64,000 nt of DNA from Sulfurimonas marina (lineage in GTDB: Bacteria; Campylobacterota; Campylobacteria; Campylobacterales; Sulfurimonadaceae), in NCBI RefSeq assembly GCF_014905095.1, contig NZ_CP041165.1, forward strand, positions 248,001-312,000, in the 5' to 3' direction. Shown here one piece after another: positions 3,282 to 38,791 of the stretch (its first letter is position 1; every line of letters starts with the position of its first letter). The translations under genes and the position numbers were made by a program. Below the pieces are notes generated by a model. The model was not told where the DNA came from. It saw only the letters and a list, made by a program, of their open reading frames with translations, and ran no database searches.

Positions 3282-11943
<8,662 letters not shown>

Positions 11944-32744: not shown

Positions 32745-33803
32745 TTACTCCTGCCCTGCCATTTTTTCAACTTCATCGACAAATTTGTCAACAAGTTCTT
32801 TTTCATCAAGATTTGCTACAACCTCACCTTTAACCATAACCAAACCTTTTCCTTTTCCGTACGCGATCGCAACATCTGCATGAGCCGCTTCACCGATTGC
32901 ATTTACGACACACCCCATTACACTTACATTGAGTGGTGTTTTAATATGTGCAGTTCTTTTTTCAATCTCACTTACTGCACTTACTAAATCAGCTTCAATT
33001 CTTCCACATGTTGGACAAGAGATGATGTTTAGACCATCAGGTAATGCCCCGCTATCTTTAAGGATTGCACGTCCGACATTGATCTCCTCTTCAAGTTCAC
33101 CAGTAATTGAAACTCTTAAAGTATCTCCGATACCGTCAAGTAAAAGTGCTCCAAGTCCGATCGAGCTTTTTACCGTTGCATGAAAGAGTGTCCCTGCTTC
33201 TGTAACTCCAAGATGGAAAGGGTAGTTGTTTTTAGGGCGAAGCATTCTATAGGCATCAACAGTTCTTTGTACATCACTTGCTTTAAGTGAGATCTTGATA
33301 TCGCTAAAACCTAAATCTTCAAGGTATTTGATGTTGTATTCGGCACTTGCTACCATCGCTTCAGCTGTTTGACCGTATTTGTTATCAAACTCTTTTTCCA
33401 GACTCCCGGCATTTACACCGATTCTAATTGGAAGGTTACGCTCTTGACATGCTTTTACAACTTCAGCAACTTTCTCTTTAGAGCCGATATTTCCAGGATT
33501 GATACGGATACAATCAACAGATTCGGCTGCTATAAGTGCTAGCTTATGGTTGAAGTGTATGTCGGCTACAAGCGGAAGTGAAATTTGTTCTTTGATACTT
33601 TTTAATGCCAATGCATCTTCCATATCGGGAACGGCTACACGAACAATGTCACATCCTGCAAAATGGAGACGGTTGATCTGTTCAACAGTTGCAGCAACAT
33701 TATGAGTATCCGAGTATGTCATTGACTGTACAGAGATAGGTGCATCTCCACCTACAGCAACATCTCCGACATATATTTTTTTCGTTGGGTATCTTTCTAT
33801 CAT
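32745..33803 (-). CDS. ispG: 4-hydroxy-3-methylbut-2-enyl diphosphate synthase
   Basis: 352 residues. It makes HMBPP from MEcPP in the MEP isoprenoid pathway. The [4Fe-4S] cysteines are seen as [13 protein letters not shown] and [12 protein letters not shown] near the C-terminus. It is the upstream partner of dnaB and comEC, with a 1-base gap before dnaB. The spacer upstream holds the long inverted repeat at 33858. Confidence 0.96.
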
Positions 33804-33857: not shown

Positions 33858-33886
33858 TTTTTAGCCCGTATTTTACGGGCTAAAAA
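33858..33886. repeat. 12-bp inverted repeat between ispG and the pentahaem gene
   Basis: TTTTTAGCCCGT (33858-33869) and ACGGGCTAAAAA (33875-33886) are perfect reverse complements with a 5-base loop. It lies 16 bases beyond the cytochrome stop on the minus strand and is probably that message's end. The T-runs lie on the 5' arms and A-runs on the 3' arms, opposite to a textbook terminator, so function is uncertain. Confidence 0.6.
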
Positions 33887-33901: not shown

Positions 33902-35557
33902 CTAAAGGTCAAGACTCTTTGTTGTTAAAATTGTAGTTTTTAGTTGTGAAGCATCAAACATAGTTTTAAAACTATTAGATTGCGTAGTGTTGTCTTCAAA
34001 GAGATCTTGAGCAAACGGATAGCTAAGTGTCTGGTAACGTAACTCTACCTCTACACGAGTTGGAGTTGTAGAAAAACTACTTGTATTTATATCGTAAGTT
34101 ACAATGTCTCCACCACCTATAAAGTTTGCATCACCACCATTAGCAGCACCTACAACTGCAATGTCACTTGTGGCTGTTGTTTTATCGAAACCTCTTGGTA
34201 AAAGACGATTGTCTTTTACATAACTTGCTGCACGAAGCAGTGTATATGTTACTTCATTATCACTGTTTTGCATAATCGCTTCATATATTTGCACTTGATC
34301 TTCTGAATTAATAACATCATAATGGGGTTCGTAGGTAGTTTTGTCCATATCACCGTTAGCACCGAAAATGCTTCCGTTAGCATCTACCTTTCCTGATTCA
34401 AATAAGACTGAATCATTTACATCATAAAGTGTAAAGTGAATAAATGCACGACGTGAAGGGAAACTAGTTGGAAGCTTATGCCCCGTATTAGCACTAACAT
34501 TTACATCAATACTGAGTATATTATTTGTTATTCCATTGTCTGTAAGTGTGATCGATGCGGCATTTTGTATAAGCTCATCAGTTTTTGTCAGTGTTTTGGT
34601 AAAGTTTGCACTCTCTACAACACCTAAAGCCGTTTTATTATTGTTAAGAATATCCAGCATCAATTTATTTCCGCCTACAAAATTATGGCGTGAAAAGTTA
34701 TTTCTTGGAGATAAAGTACCGTTGTCCGGACGAGTAGATATAATAACACCATCAGTTTTTTCCATATGACACTCTTGACAGATCGTTGTAGTGCTAAAGT
34801 CACTATGTTCCCATTCGCTATATGGCATCTGCTCAGGAAATTCACTTTCAGCTGTTGTTGAAACCAAATCACCATTACTGTCTACAAATGGCGTTTTAAG
34901 ATTATGACATGTCGCACACATTTTTGATTCACTTATATGACTACTTTGAACAGGTGTATAGTTTAAAGAGTTTTGCATAGGGGTAACGAGAGGGTTAATA
35001 AACTGTCCGTAGATCTCACGATTTGAATTGATTGAGTAGCCTCCTGAAAAACCATCAAGTGTACCAAGGTTTGTCGCATCTATTTGATGGCAAAGTGCAC
35101 AGCTTACTCCGTTCATAGCTTCATTGTAATGGGCATTAGAACTGTTTAAAAATCCATTCTCAAAGACTTTTATTTCATCACTGAGATAATGTGCTTCATA
35201 ATTTGCCATAGGGGCATGACATTTTGTACATTTGTCGTTGATAGTAGTGTTAAGATCGGGATTACGTTTGAGCTCTGATGCAACTTTTGCTTTCCATAAC
35301 GGATCTTTAGAAGAATTCCCCATCATAGTAGCTGCCCAATCACTTTCAATAGAGACATCTGCTCCATTTCCATCAACAATGCCGTTATGACAAAGCGCAC
35401 AGTTTTGTGAGCCAGAAAAATGTGTAGAGGTGAAAGCTCTATCTTCAGATACTATTGTTGTCGTAGTATTTTCTGAAGAACCTCCACCACCGCAAGCTGT
35501 AAAAAATATTGTTGTAAAAATTAATGACGAAGAGAGAATAATTGAAAATTTATTCAT
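33902..35557 (-). CDS. Pentahaem c-type cytochrome lipoprotein
   Basis: 551 residues. The lipobox FTAC gives Cys22, followed by GGGGSS. Five CxxCH sites are at 53-57, 110-114, 153-157, 214-218 and 260-264 (CALCH, CTKCH, CALCH, CATCH, CQECH). Past residue 270 a beta-rich part with GHKLPTSFPSRRAFIHFTL follows, a pattern seen also in the 47717 cytochrome. This is the cytochrome c554-like family, probably an electron carrier or reductase facing the periplasm. It lies 84 bases after the copper receptor gene, on the same strand. Confidence 0.85.
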   Translation of the reverse strand: MNKFSIILSSSLIFTTIFFTACGGGGSSENTTTTIVSEDRAFTSTHFSGSQNCALCHNGIVDGNGADVSIESDWAATMMGNSSKDPLWKAKVASELKRNPDLNTTINDKCTKCHAPMANYEAHYLSDEIKVFENGFLNSSNAHYNEAMNGVSCALCHQIDATNLGTLDGFSGGYSINSNREIYGQFINPLVTPMQNSLNYTPVQSSHISESKMCATCHNLKTPFVDSNGDLVSTTAESEFPEQMPYSEWEHSDFSTTTICQECHMEKTDGVIISTRPDNGTLSPRNNFSRHNFVGGNKLMLDILNNNKTALGVVESANFTKTLTKTDELIQNAASITLTDNGITNNILSIDVNVSANTGHKLPTSFPSRRAFIHFTLYDVNDSVLFESGKVDANGSIFGANGDMDKTTYEPHYDVINSEDQVQIYEAIMQNSDNEVTYTLLRAASYVKDNRLLPRGFDKTTATSDIAVVGAANGGDANFIGGGDIVTYDINTSSFSTTPTRVEVELRYQTLSYPFAQDLFEDNTTQSNSFKTMFDASQLKTTILTTKSLDL

Positions 35558-35609
35558 AAGTTTGCCTTGTTGTATTTTGCTATTGTCTTAAGCAAGTGTT
35601 AGTGAAGTC

Positions 35610-35630
35610 TTAGCACCGAAAAGGTGCTAA
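35610..35630 (-). terminator. Hairpin between the TonB receptor and pentahaem genes
   Basis: TTAGCACC (35610-35617) and GGTGCTAA (35623-35630) make a perfect 8-bp stem. On the minus strand T7 comes before the stem, not after, so it is not a classic terminator. It lies 12 bases past the receptor stop and 53 bases before the cytochrome start, and may limit read-through. Confidence 0.5.
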
Positions 35631-35641
35631 AAAAAGTAGTT

Positions 35642-37612
35642 TTAGAATTTAAAATCTAAGTTAGTATAGAAATAACGGCCAGGTTCGTTAAGAAGCATAA
35701 CATCACCTGTAGTTCCACCAGTTAATAGAGTTAAATCTTTATATGTATTGTTTACAGCATATGTAACATCAAAGATATTGTTCATACCAAGAGTAAGGTC
35801 AAATTTTTTGTTTACGGCATGTTTGATTTTTGCATTTACAACTGCCCAACCAGCGATCTCTTGTTCACCGTTGTCTTCATCAAATTTGTCCCATCTGTCA
35901 CTTGCTTGTAGTTCTAAAGTTGCCATAGAGTTGTTTCTATACTCATAGTTTACACCGATATTTCCACGTAACGGAGCAATATCTGCTAGATCTTTATCTG
36001 TTTGACCTGTAAGTGCTTGATCTTTTTCACCAACTTTATAAGATGCTCCCATATCGATAGTGATTGTGTCAGTTGCATAAACTGACGCGCTTAATTCTAC
36101 ACCATAAACAGTTGCATCTATATTTTTAAAATTGCTTGATGCTAAACCATCTTGATAATAAATGTAGTTATCTAACATAGAGTAGAAAGTTTTAGCTTTT
36201 AATTTAAAATATTGATTATCTGTTTCATAACCTAAATCTACTTCTTGATTTGTTACTTGGTCTAAATTATTAGTAGCATGCATACCCATATATAACTCTC
36301 TAGCATCTGGTACACGTGAAGCTTGACCGATTCCTAAGAAAACTTTATTTTCTTTGTTAATGTTGTATGTAGTCATAATATTTGCACTTAATGCAGTGTA
36401 ATCATTTGACTGTAATGCTGTATCTTCAGGTGTGATTTTTGTTGAATCATATCTAGCACCTATTTCAACATCAAGATCTGCATATGATTTTTTTAGTTTT
36501 GCAAAAATCGCTGCATTCTCTGTTTTTGTAGGAGTTAGTGAAACAGCAATAGAAGCAGGCATAACTACTCCTGAAGCATTTGACATATACTTTTGACCTT
36601 CCCAAGTTCTTTTACTTGTGTCTAAACCTATTAAGATTTCATGTGCCATAACATCAAAACTATTTTTTAGTTTTAAACCTTGCATAGTTGTTTTAAGATG
36701 ATTTGTCATGTAATTTGGTGTATTCATCGTTTGTCTGTACATTGTATCCATCGGATGATCTACATCAGAGTAGTAGTATTGTAGATTTACATTTTTATAG
36801 TTTTCATTAATCGAGTCTATATTGTATTCAACACTATAGATGTTTGAATCATCGTAACGTGCATCCATTTTAGAGTTTGGATAAAGAACATTATCACTTC
36901 TGTTTGCAGTTACACTAAGACGTAATTCTTGATTTTCAAAAGTTGAGATATAAGCTTTTGCCATTGCACTTTTTTTCTTATACGCTGGTACGTCATGATA
37001 TGTTGATGTAAAGAGTGAAGTACCGTAATTATCAACTTGTTCTGCCAGTGTATCACCGTTACCGTCTTTATACTGATCACTAGATTCATCTGATACAGTT
37101 GCAATCATTCTGATAAAATCATTTCCACCGCTTACAGTAGCACCGAATTTTCTGTAGTTCCATGCACCAAAACCTAGATTAATAGAAGCTTGAAGATCTT
37201 TTGTCGGTTTTTTAGTCTCGATTTTTACACCACCGCTAAGAACTCCAAAGCTCTCTACATCGTAAGGACCTTCAATAACCGTTATCTTGTCAACCTGATT
37301 TGCAACAATGTGTGATGTCGGCGGATCCATTCTGTTTGGACATGCACCGCATACTTTTGTACCGTCAACCTCTACAACAATGTTATCCCTTTTTTGACCA
37401 CGGATGTAGATATCGTTAGCGATAGCGCTTCTTCTGTTCATATCGATACTTGGAACTTTATCACTAAGTGCTTTTGCAACATCAGCTGAAGTTTGTGCAT
37501 TTTCTGCAACTTCTGAAATCACCGTTGATTCGACATTGATAGTATCAACTTGAAGATCGTTGGCAACAAGATAAGATACGGCAAGTAATGATAATGGAAT
37601 GATTTTCTTCAT
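35642..37612 (-). CDS. TonB-dependent receptor, OprC/NosA-like copper uptake
   Basis: 656 residues with a signal peptide, a plug domain (IYIRGQKRDNIVVEVDGTKV) and a barrel ending in FYTNLDFKF. The plug has CGACPNRMDPP: Cys91-xxx-Met95 matches the CxxxM copper-binding motif of OprC, and His286-Pro-Met288 (VDHPMDT) matches its HxM motif. So copper import is likely. A further Cys88 may add a ligand. The pentahaem cytochrome follows downstream. The upstream -10 TAGAAT is weak; regulation by copper is not visible. Confidence 0.87.
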   Translation of the reverse strand: MKKIIPLSLLAVSYLVANDLQVDTINVESTVISEVAENAQTSADVAKALSDKVPSIDMNRRSAIANDIYIRGQKRDNIVVEVDGTKVCGACPNRMDPPTSHIVANQVDKITVIEGPYDVESFGVLSGGVKIETKKPTKDLQASINLGFGAWNYRKFGATVSGGNDFIRMIATVSDESSDQYKDGNGDTLAEQVDNYGTSLFTSTYHDVPAYKKKSAMAKAYISTFENQELRLSVTANRSDNVLYPNSKMDARYDDSNIYSVEYNIDSINENYKNVNLQYYYSDVDHPMDTMYRQTMNTPNYMTNHLKTTMQGLKLKNSFDVMAHEILIGLDTSKRTWEGQKYMSNASGVVMPASIAVSLTPTKTENAAIFAKLKKSYADLDVEIGARYDSTKITPEDTALQSNDYTALSANIMTTYNINKENKVFLGIGQASRVPDARELYMGMHATNNLDQVTNQEVDLGYETDNQYFKLKAKTFYSMLDNYIYYQDGLASSNFKNIDATVYGVELSASVYATDTITIDMGASYKVGEKDQALTGQTDKDLADIAPLRGNIGVNYEYRNNSMATLELQASDRWDKFDEDNGEQEIAGWAVVNAKIKHAVNKKFDLTLGMNNIFDVTYAVNNTYKDLTLLTGGTTGDVMLLNEPGRYFYTNLDFKF

Positions 37613-37696: not shown

Positions 37697-37852
37697 ATGA
37701 CAAAAATGGAAAAATTGAAACGAACGGTAATGATAGCGATAGGTTTTGCCCTTGCCACATATTTGATTATGAGTGGCATGGCAATATTAGAACAAGAGGA
37801 ACTAAAGGAGAGTAACTCCACTAGCGAAGTTCATAGTGACACAGTGAAGTGA
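37697..37852 (+). CDS. Candidate 51-residue membrane protein
   Basis: An ORF of 51 codons, MTKMEKLKRTVMIAIGFALA then a hydrophobic stretch to about residue 30, then an acidic/Ser-rich tail ending DTVK. One membrane helix (about 10-30) with a positive N-terminus would sit with the tail outside. There is no ribosome binding site; a -10 box six bases upstream would give a leaderless message. It lies between the copper receptor and aguA genes, with a 51-base convergent overlap with aguA. Expression unproven. Confidence 0.4.
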   Translation: MTKMEKLKRTVMIAIGFALATYLIMSGMAILEQEELKESNSTSEVHSDTVK

Positions 37853-38791
37853 ACCATGTTGGCGGATCAGTGTTGAGCAATCAACACCAACTATTCTGCG
37901 ATCGGGAAATGCCCATTTAAAGATCTCCAGAGCTTCAGCATCCTCTTTCACATTGTAAGTCGGAACTATGACACCTCCGTTAACAAGTAAAAAGTTGGCA
38001 TATGTTGCTGGAAGTCTTTCATCCTCATCGTATACAGCTGAACTCATCGGAAGTTTGATCAGTTTTAGTTTATGCTCTATCACAAACTCTTTAAGTTCAT
38101 CCTCCATCTTTTTTAAGGCTTCGTAGTGCTCGTCTTGTGGGTTATCACACGCTACATACATGATTGTATCTTTTGAGATAAAACGTGCCAGTGTATCTAT
38201 ATGGGAGTCTGTATCATCCCCTGCAAGATAACCATGATCAAGATATAAGATCTCTTTAGCCCCAAAATACTCTTTTAACTTTTGTGTCATCTGCTCTTTT
38301 GTAAACTCTTTATTTCTATTTGGGTTGAGCATACACTCCGATGTTGTAAGGATAAGCCCTTCACCGTTGCTTTCAACACCGCCACCCTCTAAGATAAGAT
38401 CTACATCTTCTAGCGGAGCTGAATAAACAGAAGCGATGGCAGGGGACATGTTATTGTCAAGTTCGGCATCAAACTTACCGCCCCATGCATTAAATGTAAA
38501 ATTAAGTAGTTTGATTTCACCGTTATTTTCAACAGTTAGTGCAGAAGAATCACGAGCCCACGTATCGTTTGCAGTGTACTCTATAAACTTTATATTTGTA
38601 TGATCTTCAAAATAGCTTTGTACCTCTTTTGTGTCATGACACACAACTAAACAAGGTTGAAAAGTTCTGATCGCATTGATGATAGCTACAAAATTTCTTT
38701 TAGCATCCTCTAAACAACAGTTCCAGTCTGTATTTTTATGAGGAAAAACAACTTGAGTGAAGCTTTGTTTTTCAAACTCTGGTATTAACAT
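37802..38791 (-). CDS. Agmatine deiminase family protein (PAD)
   Basis: 329 residues, the peptidylarginine deiminase/agmatine deiminase fold. The catalytic Cys is in QHGSLHCVTMNF, and the His and Asp are in GDDTDSHIDTLAR and WARDSSA. Agmatine to N-carbamoylputrescine is the likely reaction, giving putrescine and nitrogen; the symbol aguA is not certain. The start codon is 14 bases from the divergent alr, and its GGAG lies opposite bases just before the alr ATG. Confidence 0.9.
   Translation of the reverse strand: MLIPEFEKQSFTQVVFPHKNTDWNCCLEDAKRNFVAIINAIRTFQPCLVVCHDTKEVQSYFEDHTNIKFIEYTANDTWARDSSALTVENNGEIKLLNFTFNAWGGKFDAELDNNMSPAIASVYSAPLEDVDLILEGGGVESNGEGLILTTSECMLNPNRNKEFTKEQMTQKLKEYFGAKEILYLDHGYLAGDDTDSHIDTLARFISKDTIMYVACDNPQDEHYEALKKMEDELKEFVIEHKLKLIKLPMSSAVYDEDERLPATYANFLLVNGGVIVPTYNVKEDAEALEIFKWAFPDRRIVGVDCSTLIRQHGSLHCVTMNFASGVTLL

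Follow-up and report, generated by a model that had tools for sequence, protein, structure and literature searches.

An OprC-like copper receptor and a pentahaem cytochrome lipoprotein in Sulfurimonas marina as probably separable neighbours

Introduction

Does a gene for a copper receptor that stands directly before a gene for a multihaem cytochrome mark a dedicated copper-respiration unit, or only a shared address? The question is raised by a stretch of 64,000 nucleotides of Sulfurimonas marina (contig NZ_CP041165.1, positions 248,001–312,000; hereafter the window, with positions counted from its first letter). On its minus strand, an open reading frame (ORF) for an OprC-like TonB-dependent copper receptor of 656 amino acids (aa; 35642–37612) is followed by a gene for a pentahaem cytochrome lipoprotein with a C-terminal Ig-like domain (551 aa; 33902–35557). 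The first-pass annotation of this DNA suggested that the pair forms a copper-dependent or copper-reducing respiration unit, closed by a hairpin at 33858. Having followed both genes through the genus, we consider it quite probable that they are two separable neighbours, an OprC-type importer found genus-wide and an optional surface cytochrome in a variable slot, with no dedicated copper-respiration unit. The pair joins a known kind of receptor to a known kind of cytochrome.

Receptor and cytochrome are rarely adjacent

To establish how often the two genes occur and adjoin, we searched 135 genomes of the genus (numbered with G; individual loci with L), calling the receptor at E 1e-60 or better and the cytochrome at E 1e-40 or better. 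The receptor was present in 117 genomes and the cytochrome in five (G000, which is the window genome, G028, G133, G009 and G127), all of which also have the receptor. The genes adjoin, in the same orientation, in three of them: the window genome, G028 and G133. In G009 they lie far apart on one contig, at 0.37 and 2.72 Mb, in G127 they are on different contigs, and the available flanks of these two cytochromes contain no OprC-like receptor. We then read the 3′ end of the receptor at 41 loci from 35 genomes. The next gene was the cytochrome at 7 loci (3 genomes) and ispG at 26 loci (24 genomes); at the remaining 8 loci (8 genomes) neither appeared within the available sequence, which at L093 stops 22 bases past the receptor.

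The cytochrome also has relatives that stand without the receptor. No OprC-like gene was seen in the available flanks of 14 of them (L063–L076), several of these flanks being short, and no receptor is annotated within 8 kb of a cytochrome on a Sulfurovum mangrovi plasmid in the PLSDB gene tables, which are incomplete. A receptor–cytochrome pair of this kind was not found described in literature searches that covered open-licence papers. The search for the same pair elsewhere, which the first-pass annotation had proposed, thus went against a unit: three genomes have the pair, set beside 117 of 135 with the receptor and 5 of 135 with the cytochrome.

The cytochrome sits ahead of the receptor's own hairpin

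In the window, the receptor stop is followed by hairpin A, the cytochrome, hairpin B and ispG (GcpE; 32745–33803, minus strand; Pfam GcpE, E 3.6e-143), the last forming the conserved right-hand flank of the slot. The two ORFs are separated by 84 untranslated bases. Hairpin A, at the junction between them (35610–35630, minus strand), has an 8-bp stem (TTAGCACC/GGTGCTAA; 35610–35617/35623–35630), and hairpin B, 3′ of the cytochrome (33858–33886, minus strand), has a perfect 13-bp stem (33858–33870/33874–33886). In the nearest relative, G047, whose receptor is 84% identical, the order is receptor stop, hairpin, ispG, with no cytochrome, and G164 shows the same empty order. In an alignment that starts where the cytochrome ends and runs on into ispG, the window and G047 share 129 of 138 bases. 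Hairpin B has its homologue in the hairpin that comes straight after the G047 receptor, with a paired change in the stem. It is therefore part of the 3′ end of the receptor gene itself, and the cytochrome lies between this hairpin and the stop codon of the receptor. The hairpin at 33858 that was thought to close the pair does exist, but as the same hairpin ends the receptor in the cytochrome-less G047, its role as a closing element did not hold. Genes that adjoin in a single genome do not necessarily work as a unit, however neatly a hairpin seems to close them off.

A junction hairpin between receptor and cytochrome folds in all three pairs, with unlike sequences. On the coding strand, no T-run follows hairpin A or hairpin B, and both are absent from the list of the terminator scan, so that 'terminator' would itself be an interpretation of these window hairpins. 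Shared transcription of receptor and cytochrome is possible.

The slot varies in size and content across the genus. Among the 24 genomes in which ispG comes next, the gap between receptor and ispG is below 150 bases in 13 and 300–1358 bases in 11. Elsewhere the receptor is followed by a DUF2202 gene with a lipoprotein-like start (L054), by small paired ORFs (L055) or by a carbonic anhydrase (L038, where ispG was not reached in the available sequence). At L039 (G038; ispG likewise not reached), a CRISPR-type array of 22 repeats of ~30 nt, spaced 64–67, lies directly 3′ of the receptor (1–1440). In G133, a PemK/MazF-type toxin gene (L062:9606–9950; Pfam E 2.8e-21) stands on the opposite strand between cytochrome and ispG; L062 was equated with G133, and L061 with G028, from matching coordinates. 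On its left-hand side, the window receptor is flanked by an agmatine deiminase-type gene (37802–38791, minus strand; PAD_porph, E 3.4e-111), which is conserved in many relatives.

The receptor carries an OprC-type copper site

The receptor matches the Pfam families Plug and TonB_dep_Rec_b-barrel above their cut-offs. Its best match among NCBIfam models is TIGR01778 (TonB-dependent copper receptor; E 1.2e-55, 189.5 bits), for which the equivalog cut-off of 472.45 bits is not reached; for this reason it is named OprC-like here, and membership of TIGR01778 is not claimed. With a profile of 15 orthologues, the best match in the Protein Data Bank (PDB) was Pseudomonas aeruginosa OprC (E 1.7e-38), the copper ligands of which are given as Cys143, Met147, His323 and Met325 in the available part of PMC8610252. 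In this alignment, C91 and M95 of the plug signature (C91-P-N-R-M95; codons 91–95, 37328–37342, minus strand) fall on Cys143 and Met147, and H286 and M288 of the barrel signature (H286-P-M288; codons 286–288, 36749–36757, minus strand) fall on His323 and Met325. Window positions of the signatures were computed from the ORF start at 37612, and OprC positions were counted along the printed alignment, in agreement with the numbering in that part of PMC8610252. All four residues are invariant in 31 of 31 aligned orthologues, so the CxxxM–HxM site reflects homology and not a chance motif.

M249 of the receptor aligns with Met286 of the OprC methionine track and is equally invariant (31/31), and the remaining track residues fall in poorly aligned loops. 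In OprC, again as far as the accessible text of PMC8610252 goes, the track binds only Cu(I), and the main site likely takes both oxidation states. A structure prediction for the receptor from a 3-row alignment was unusable (pLDDT 35.8) and was set aside. The receptor resembles OprC and Pseudomonas stutzeri NosA in having all four ligands at homologous positions and one track residue, but differs in falling far below the TIGR01778 cut-off and in belonging to a genome without a NosZ match. We infer by homology that it is a copper importer of the OprC/NosA type. The statement in the first-pass annotation that the receptor has both OprC copper signatures is upheld by these alignments, as is its description of the following gene on the same strand (33902–35557) as a lipoprotein-type pentahaem cytochrome, with five CxxCH motifs and a lipobox-like start.

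The cytochrome belongs to a pentahaem family with varied tails

The ten haem cysteines and five histidines of the cytochrome's CxxCH motifs are invariant in 17 of 17 aligned rows, and its N-terminus has a lipobox-like FTAC followed by GGGGSS. A single-sequence search of the PDB with the cytochrome gave no match. With a profile of 17 relatives, the only match was 5ze8, the Thermochromatium tepidum pentahaem cytochrome c552 (E 0.0015), with the best-scoring stretch in its C-terminal part (278–338). The predicted structure of the window cytochrome has a mean pLDDT of 55.4, with the haem domain mostly below 50, and in residues 332–551 it forms beta strands (pLDDT about 70–93) that match 5ze8 and other beta-sandwich domains. 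A Foldseek search with this model returned 5ze8 as the sole match under E 0.001 (E 4.8e-7), and 5ze8 was also the top row in VIA-align (Z 10.7, rmsd 5.1, 219 aligned, residues 44–551). The window cytochrome thus shares with c552 five haems and a C-terminal beta domain, but the two are only 15–18% identical; the N-terminus of the window protein is lipobox-like, and the model of its haem part is of low confidence.

A family that combines a pentahaem domain with an Ig-like domain includes Geobacter ExtKL and Gsu2801 and proteins of cable bacteria, and is structurally related to c552 (PMC11976967, available portion). Residues 50–268 of the window cytochrome match the ExtKL model NF040886 (E 5.6e-11) with 41.7 bits, far under the curated cut-off of 250, and no ext-type neighbours are present among the flanking genes examined. 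Judged by its sequence and predicted fold, the window cytochrome is a member of this pentahaem-plus-Ig-like family, with both defining parts, but is not ExtKL itself.

The tails of its relatives differ from lineage to lineage. Those in methanotrophs have an N-terminal DUF642 domain and, at the C-terminus, thrombospondin-3 and dockerin domains; by eye, Sulfurovum relatives have acidic calcium-binding-like repeats and L066 has a hydrophobic, anchor-like C-terminal tail. Such varied surface-type tails, together with the lipobox of the window protein, favour a cell-surface site, and a surface electron-transfer role for the cytochrome is likely. One pentahaem core with different anchoring-type modules across phyla makes that role testable. 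A porin of the MtrB/PioB type (PF11854) gave no match in the window genome and exceeded its cut-off in 6 of the 135 genomes of the genus.

NosZ does not accompany the pair

The first-pass annotation had suggested looking for co-occurrence with nosZ, the gene for nitrous oxide reductase. Calling NosZ by the TIGR04246 cut-off in the same 135 genomes, we found it in 64, with no match in the window genome. None of the three pair-bearing genomes exceeded the cut-off (G028 had no match and G133 a short match below it); of the five genomes with the cytochrome, G127 alone did so, and there the two genes are apart. NosZ was commoner in genomes with the receptor (60/117) than in those without a receptor match (4/18; Fisher p 0.024, a test that ignores kinship and incomplete assemblies). 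The window genome has two COX1-family genes, which would make haem-copper oxidases the obvious customers for copper. With the pair confined to three genomes, no NosZ over the cut-off in any of them and the closing hairpin being the receptor's own, the proposed respiration unit finds no support, and the co-occurrence with nosZ fails in the window genome itself. What the survey does place firmly in this genus of Campylobacterota is the OprC copper site, which 117 of 135 genomes have, some with NosZ and others without.

That the receptor is a NosA-like supply line to N2O reductase, or to some other respiratory enzyme that uses copper, and that the cytochrome donates the electrons, is accordingly barely plausible to us: the association of NosZ with the receptor speaks for it, and the lack of a NosZ match in the window genome and in G028, with only a short sub-cut-off match in G133, speaks against it. 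For the window genome, supply to N2O reductase is refuted as far as TIGR04246 can tell.

Weighing a unit against two neighbours

Under the reading that we favour, two separable neighbours, copper would bind at C91, M95, H286 and M288 near the outside, and TonB would then pull it into the periplasm, most likely for delivery to haem-copper oxidases. The cytochrome would be an accessory surface lipoprotein that passes electrons along on the outside of the outer membrane, with an extracellular acceptor as their probable destination, and its gene would occupy the variable slot between the receptor stop and the receptor's own hairpin. Consistent with this, the cytochrome is missing in the nearest relatives and elsewhere stands without the receptor.

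The history of the pair is less one-sided. A receptor tree built from 35 of the 117 genomes that have the gene places G047 as the sister of the window (100/96), then G164 and G118, then G028 (95/90); G133 lies elsewhere, with G055 (100/99). In the cytochrome tree, built without the fragment rows L068, L074 and L076, the window groups with G028 (99/97) and then with G133 (98/98), and G009 and G127 fall outside. Several of these results weigh against mere neighbours. The window and G028 have kept the pair although their receptors are only 67% and their cytochromes 69% identical, and the three in-slot cytochromes are united in one group (98/98). As the window's sister in the receptor tree is the cytochrome-less G047, loss in G047 is as good an explanation as recent gain in the window. 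G133, whose receptor branches far from that of the window, has its copy in the same slot, which could reflect selection for the neighbourhood. On the side of the cytochrome, much of the haem part is poorly modelled, and the surface location is itself a prediction. On these trees, the window and G028 may both have inherited the pair from a shared ancestor, and G047 and G164 may have lost the cytochrome. In that case, the copy in G133 would have to have been transferred into this slot, or else the pair would be much older and would have been lost many times. By either history, the receptor of most members of the genus manages without this cytochrome.

One way in which the two genes could work together is as a surface copper reductase, in which the lipid-anchored cytochrome would reduce extracellular Cu(II) and the resulting Cu(I) would pass to the methionine track of the receptor. 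Yeast offers a parallel, as Fre reductases feed Ctr1. The adjacency in the same orientation in three genomes fits this idea, as do the Cu(I)-only track of OprC (PMC8610252, available part) and the invariance of M249, the counterpart of track residue Met286, in 31 of 31 orthologues. A further precedent is Bordetella CrtA–CrpH, in which, according to the accessible parts of PMC12914433 and PMC13038864, a copper TonB receptor shares an operon with a putative reductase from a superfamily of haem-dependent reductases; for this reason we retain the reductase among the candidates. The likeness has limits, however: in those same parts, CrpH is a PepSY_TM membrane protein that supports haem-copper oxidoreductases, not a multihaem lipoprotein, and CrtA is assigned to a receptor subfamily of its own. 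Moreover, 112 of the 117 receptor genomes are without this cytochrome, the cytochrome, over most of its range, has no such receptor beside it, each of the three pairs has a hairpin between its two genes, and no MtrB/PioB-type conduit that could carry electrons out was found in the genome. We regard a copper reductase as quite improbable. If true, it would be a two-part uptake device, equivalent at the outer membrane to copper import coupled to a reductase, and retained in one and the same slot by a few lineages of the genus.

The cytochrome could also be a terminal module for extracellular electron transfer, to metal oxides, electrodes or partner cells, that stands here by chance, with copper uninvolved. 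Its relatives bear varied surface-type tails and its family includes ExtKL, which in Geobacter has been connected with selenite reduction as well as extracellular electron transfer (PMC11976967, PMC5877670, both in their available portions); on the other side stand the missing match to an MtrB/PioB porin in the window genome and the score far below the curated ExtKL cut-off. We hold this to be a serious possibility that falls slightly short of even.

Further occurrences of the cytochrome

Relatives of the cytochrome are common in methanotrophs, for which reason a copper link by way of these bacteria was entertained and then set aside. In seven of them (L065 and L067–L072, from Methylomonas, Methylobacter and a Methylococcaceae metagenome-assembled genome), Dockerin_1 is C-terminal in 7/7, six over the Pfam cut-off, and DUF642 is N-terminal in 6/7. 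After each of the seven cytochromes comes a PEP-CTERM-type protein, and these partners form one family (for example, L070:7395–9851 and 9946–10536). The partner family has no PDB profile match, and one of its seven members has a weak match to Cohesin (E 0.0043), a faint hint that the partner may be a cohesin. We know of no aerobic methanotroph in which a surface cytochrome is tethered by cohesin and dockerin; a literature search on this point listed a single paper, on a mangrove metagenome.

The plasmid-borne cytochrome mentioned above (L100; NZ_CP087125.1, 58076–59743) is 48% identical to that of the window and lies on a 395-kb plasmid of Sulfurovum mangrovi, which shows that the gene can be carried outside the chromosome. 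In G127, the cytochrome (L097:585–2021) is enclosed by two tRNA-Gln genes (102–176 and 2208–2282), which may mark insertion by tRNA-targeted recombination. More distant relatives (L004–L029), many of them frames of ~600 aa and most with 26–32% identity, are commoner in the genus than the window type.

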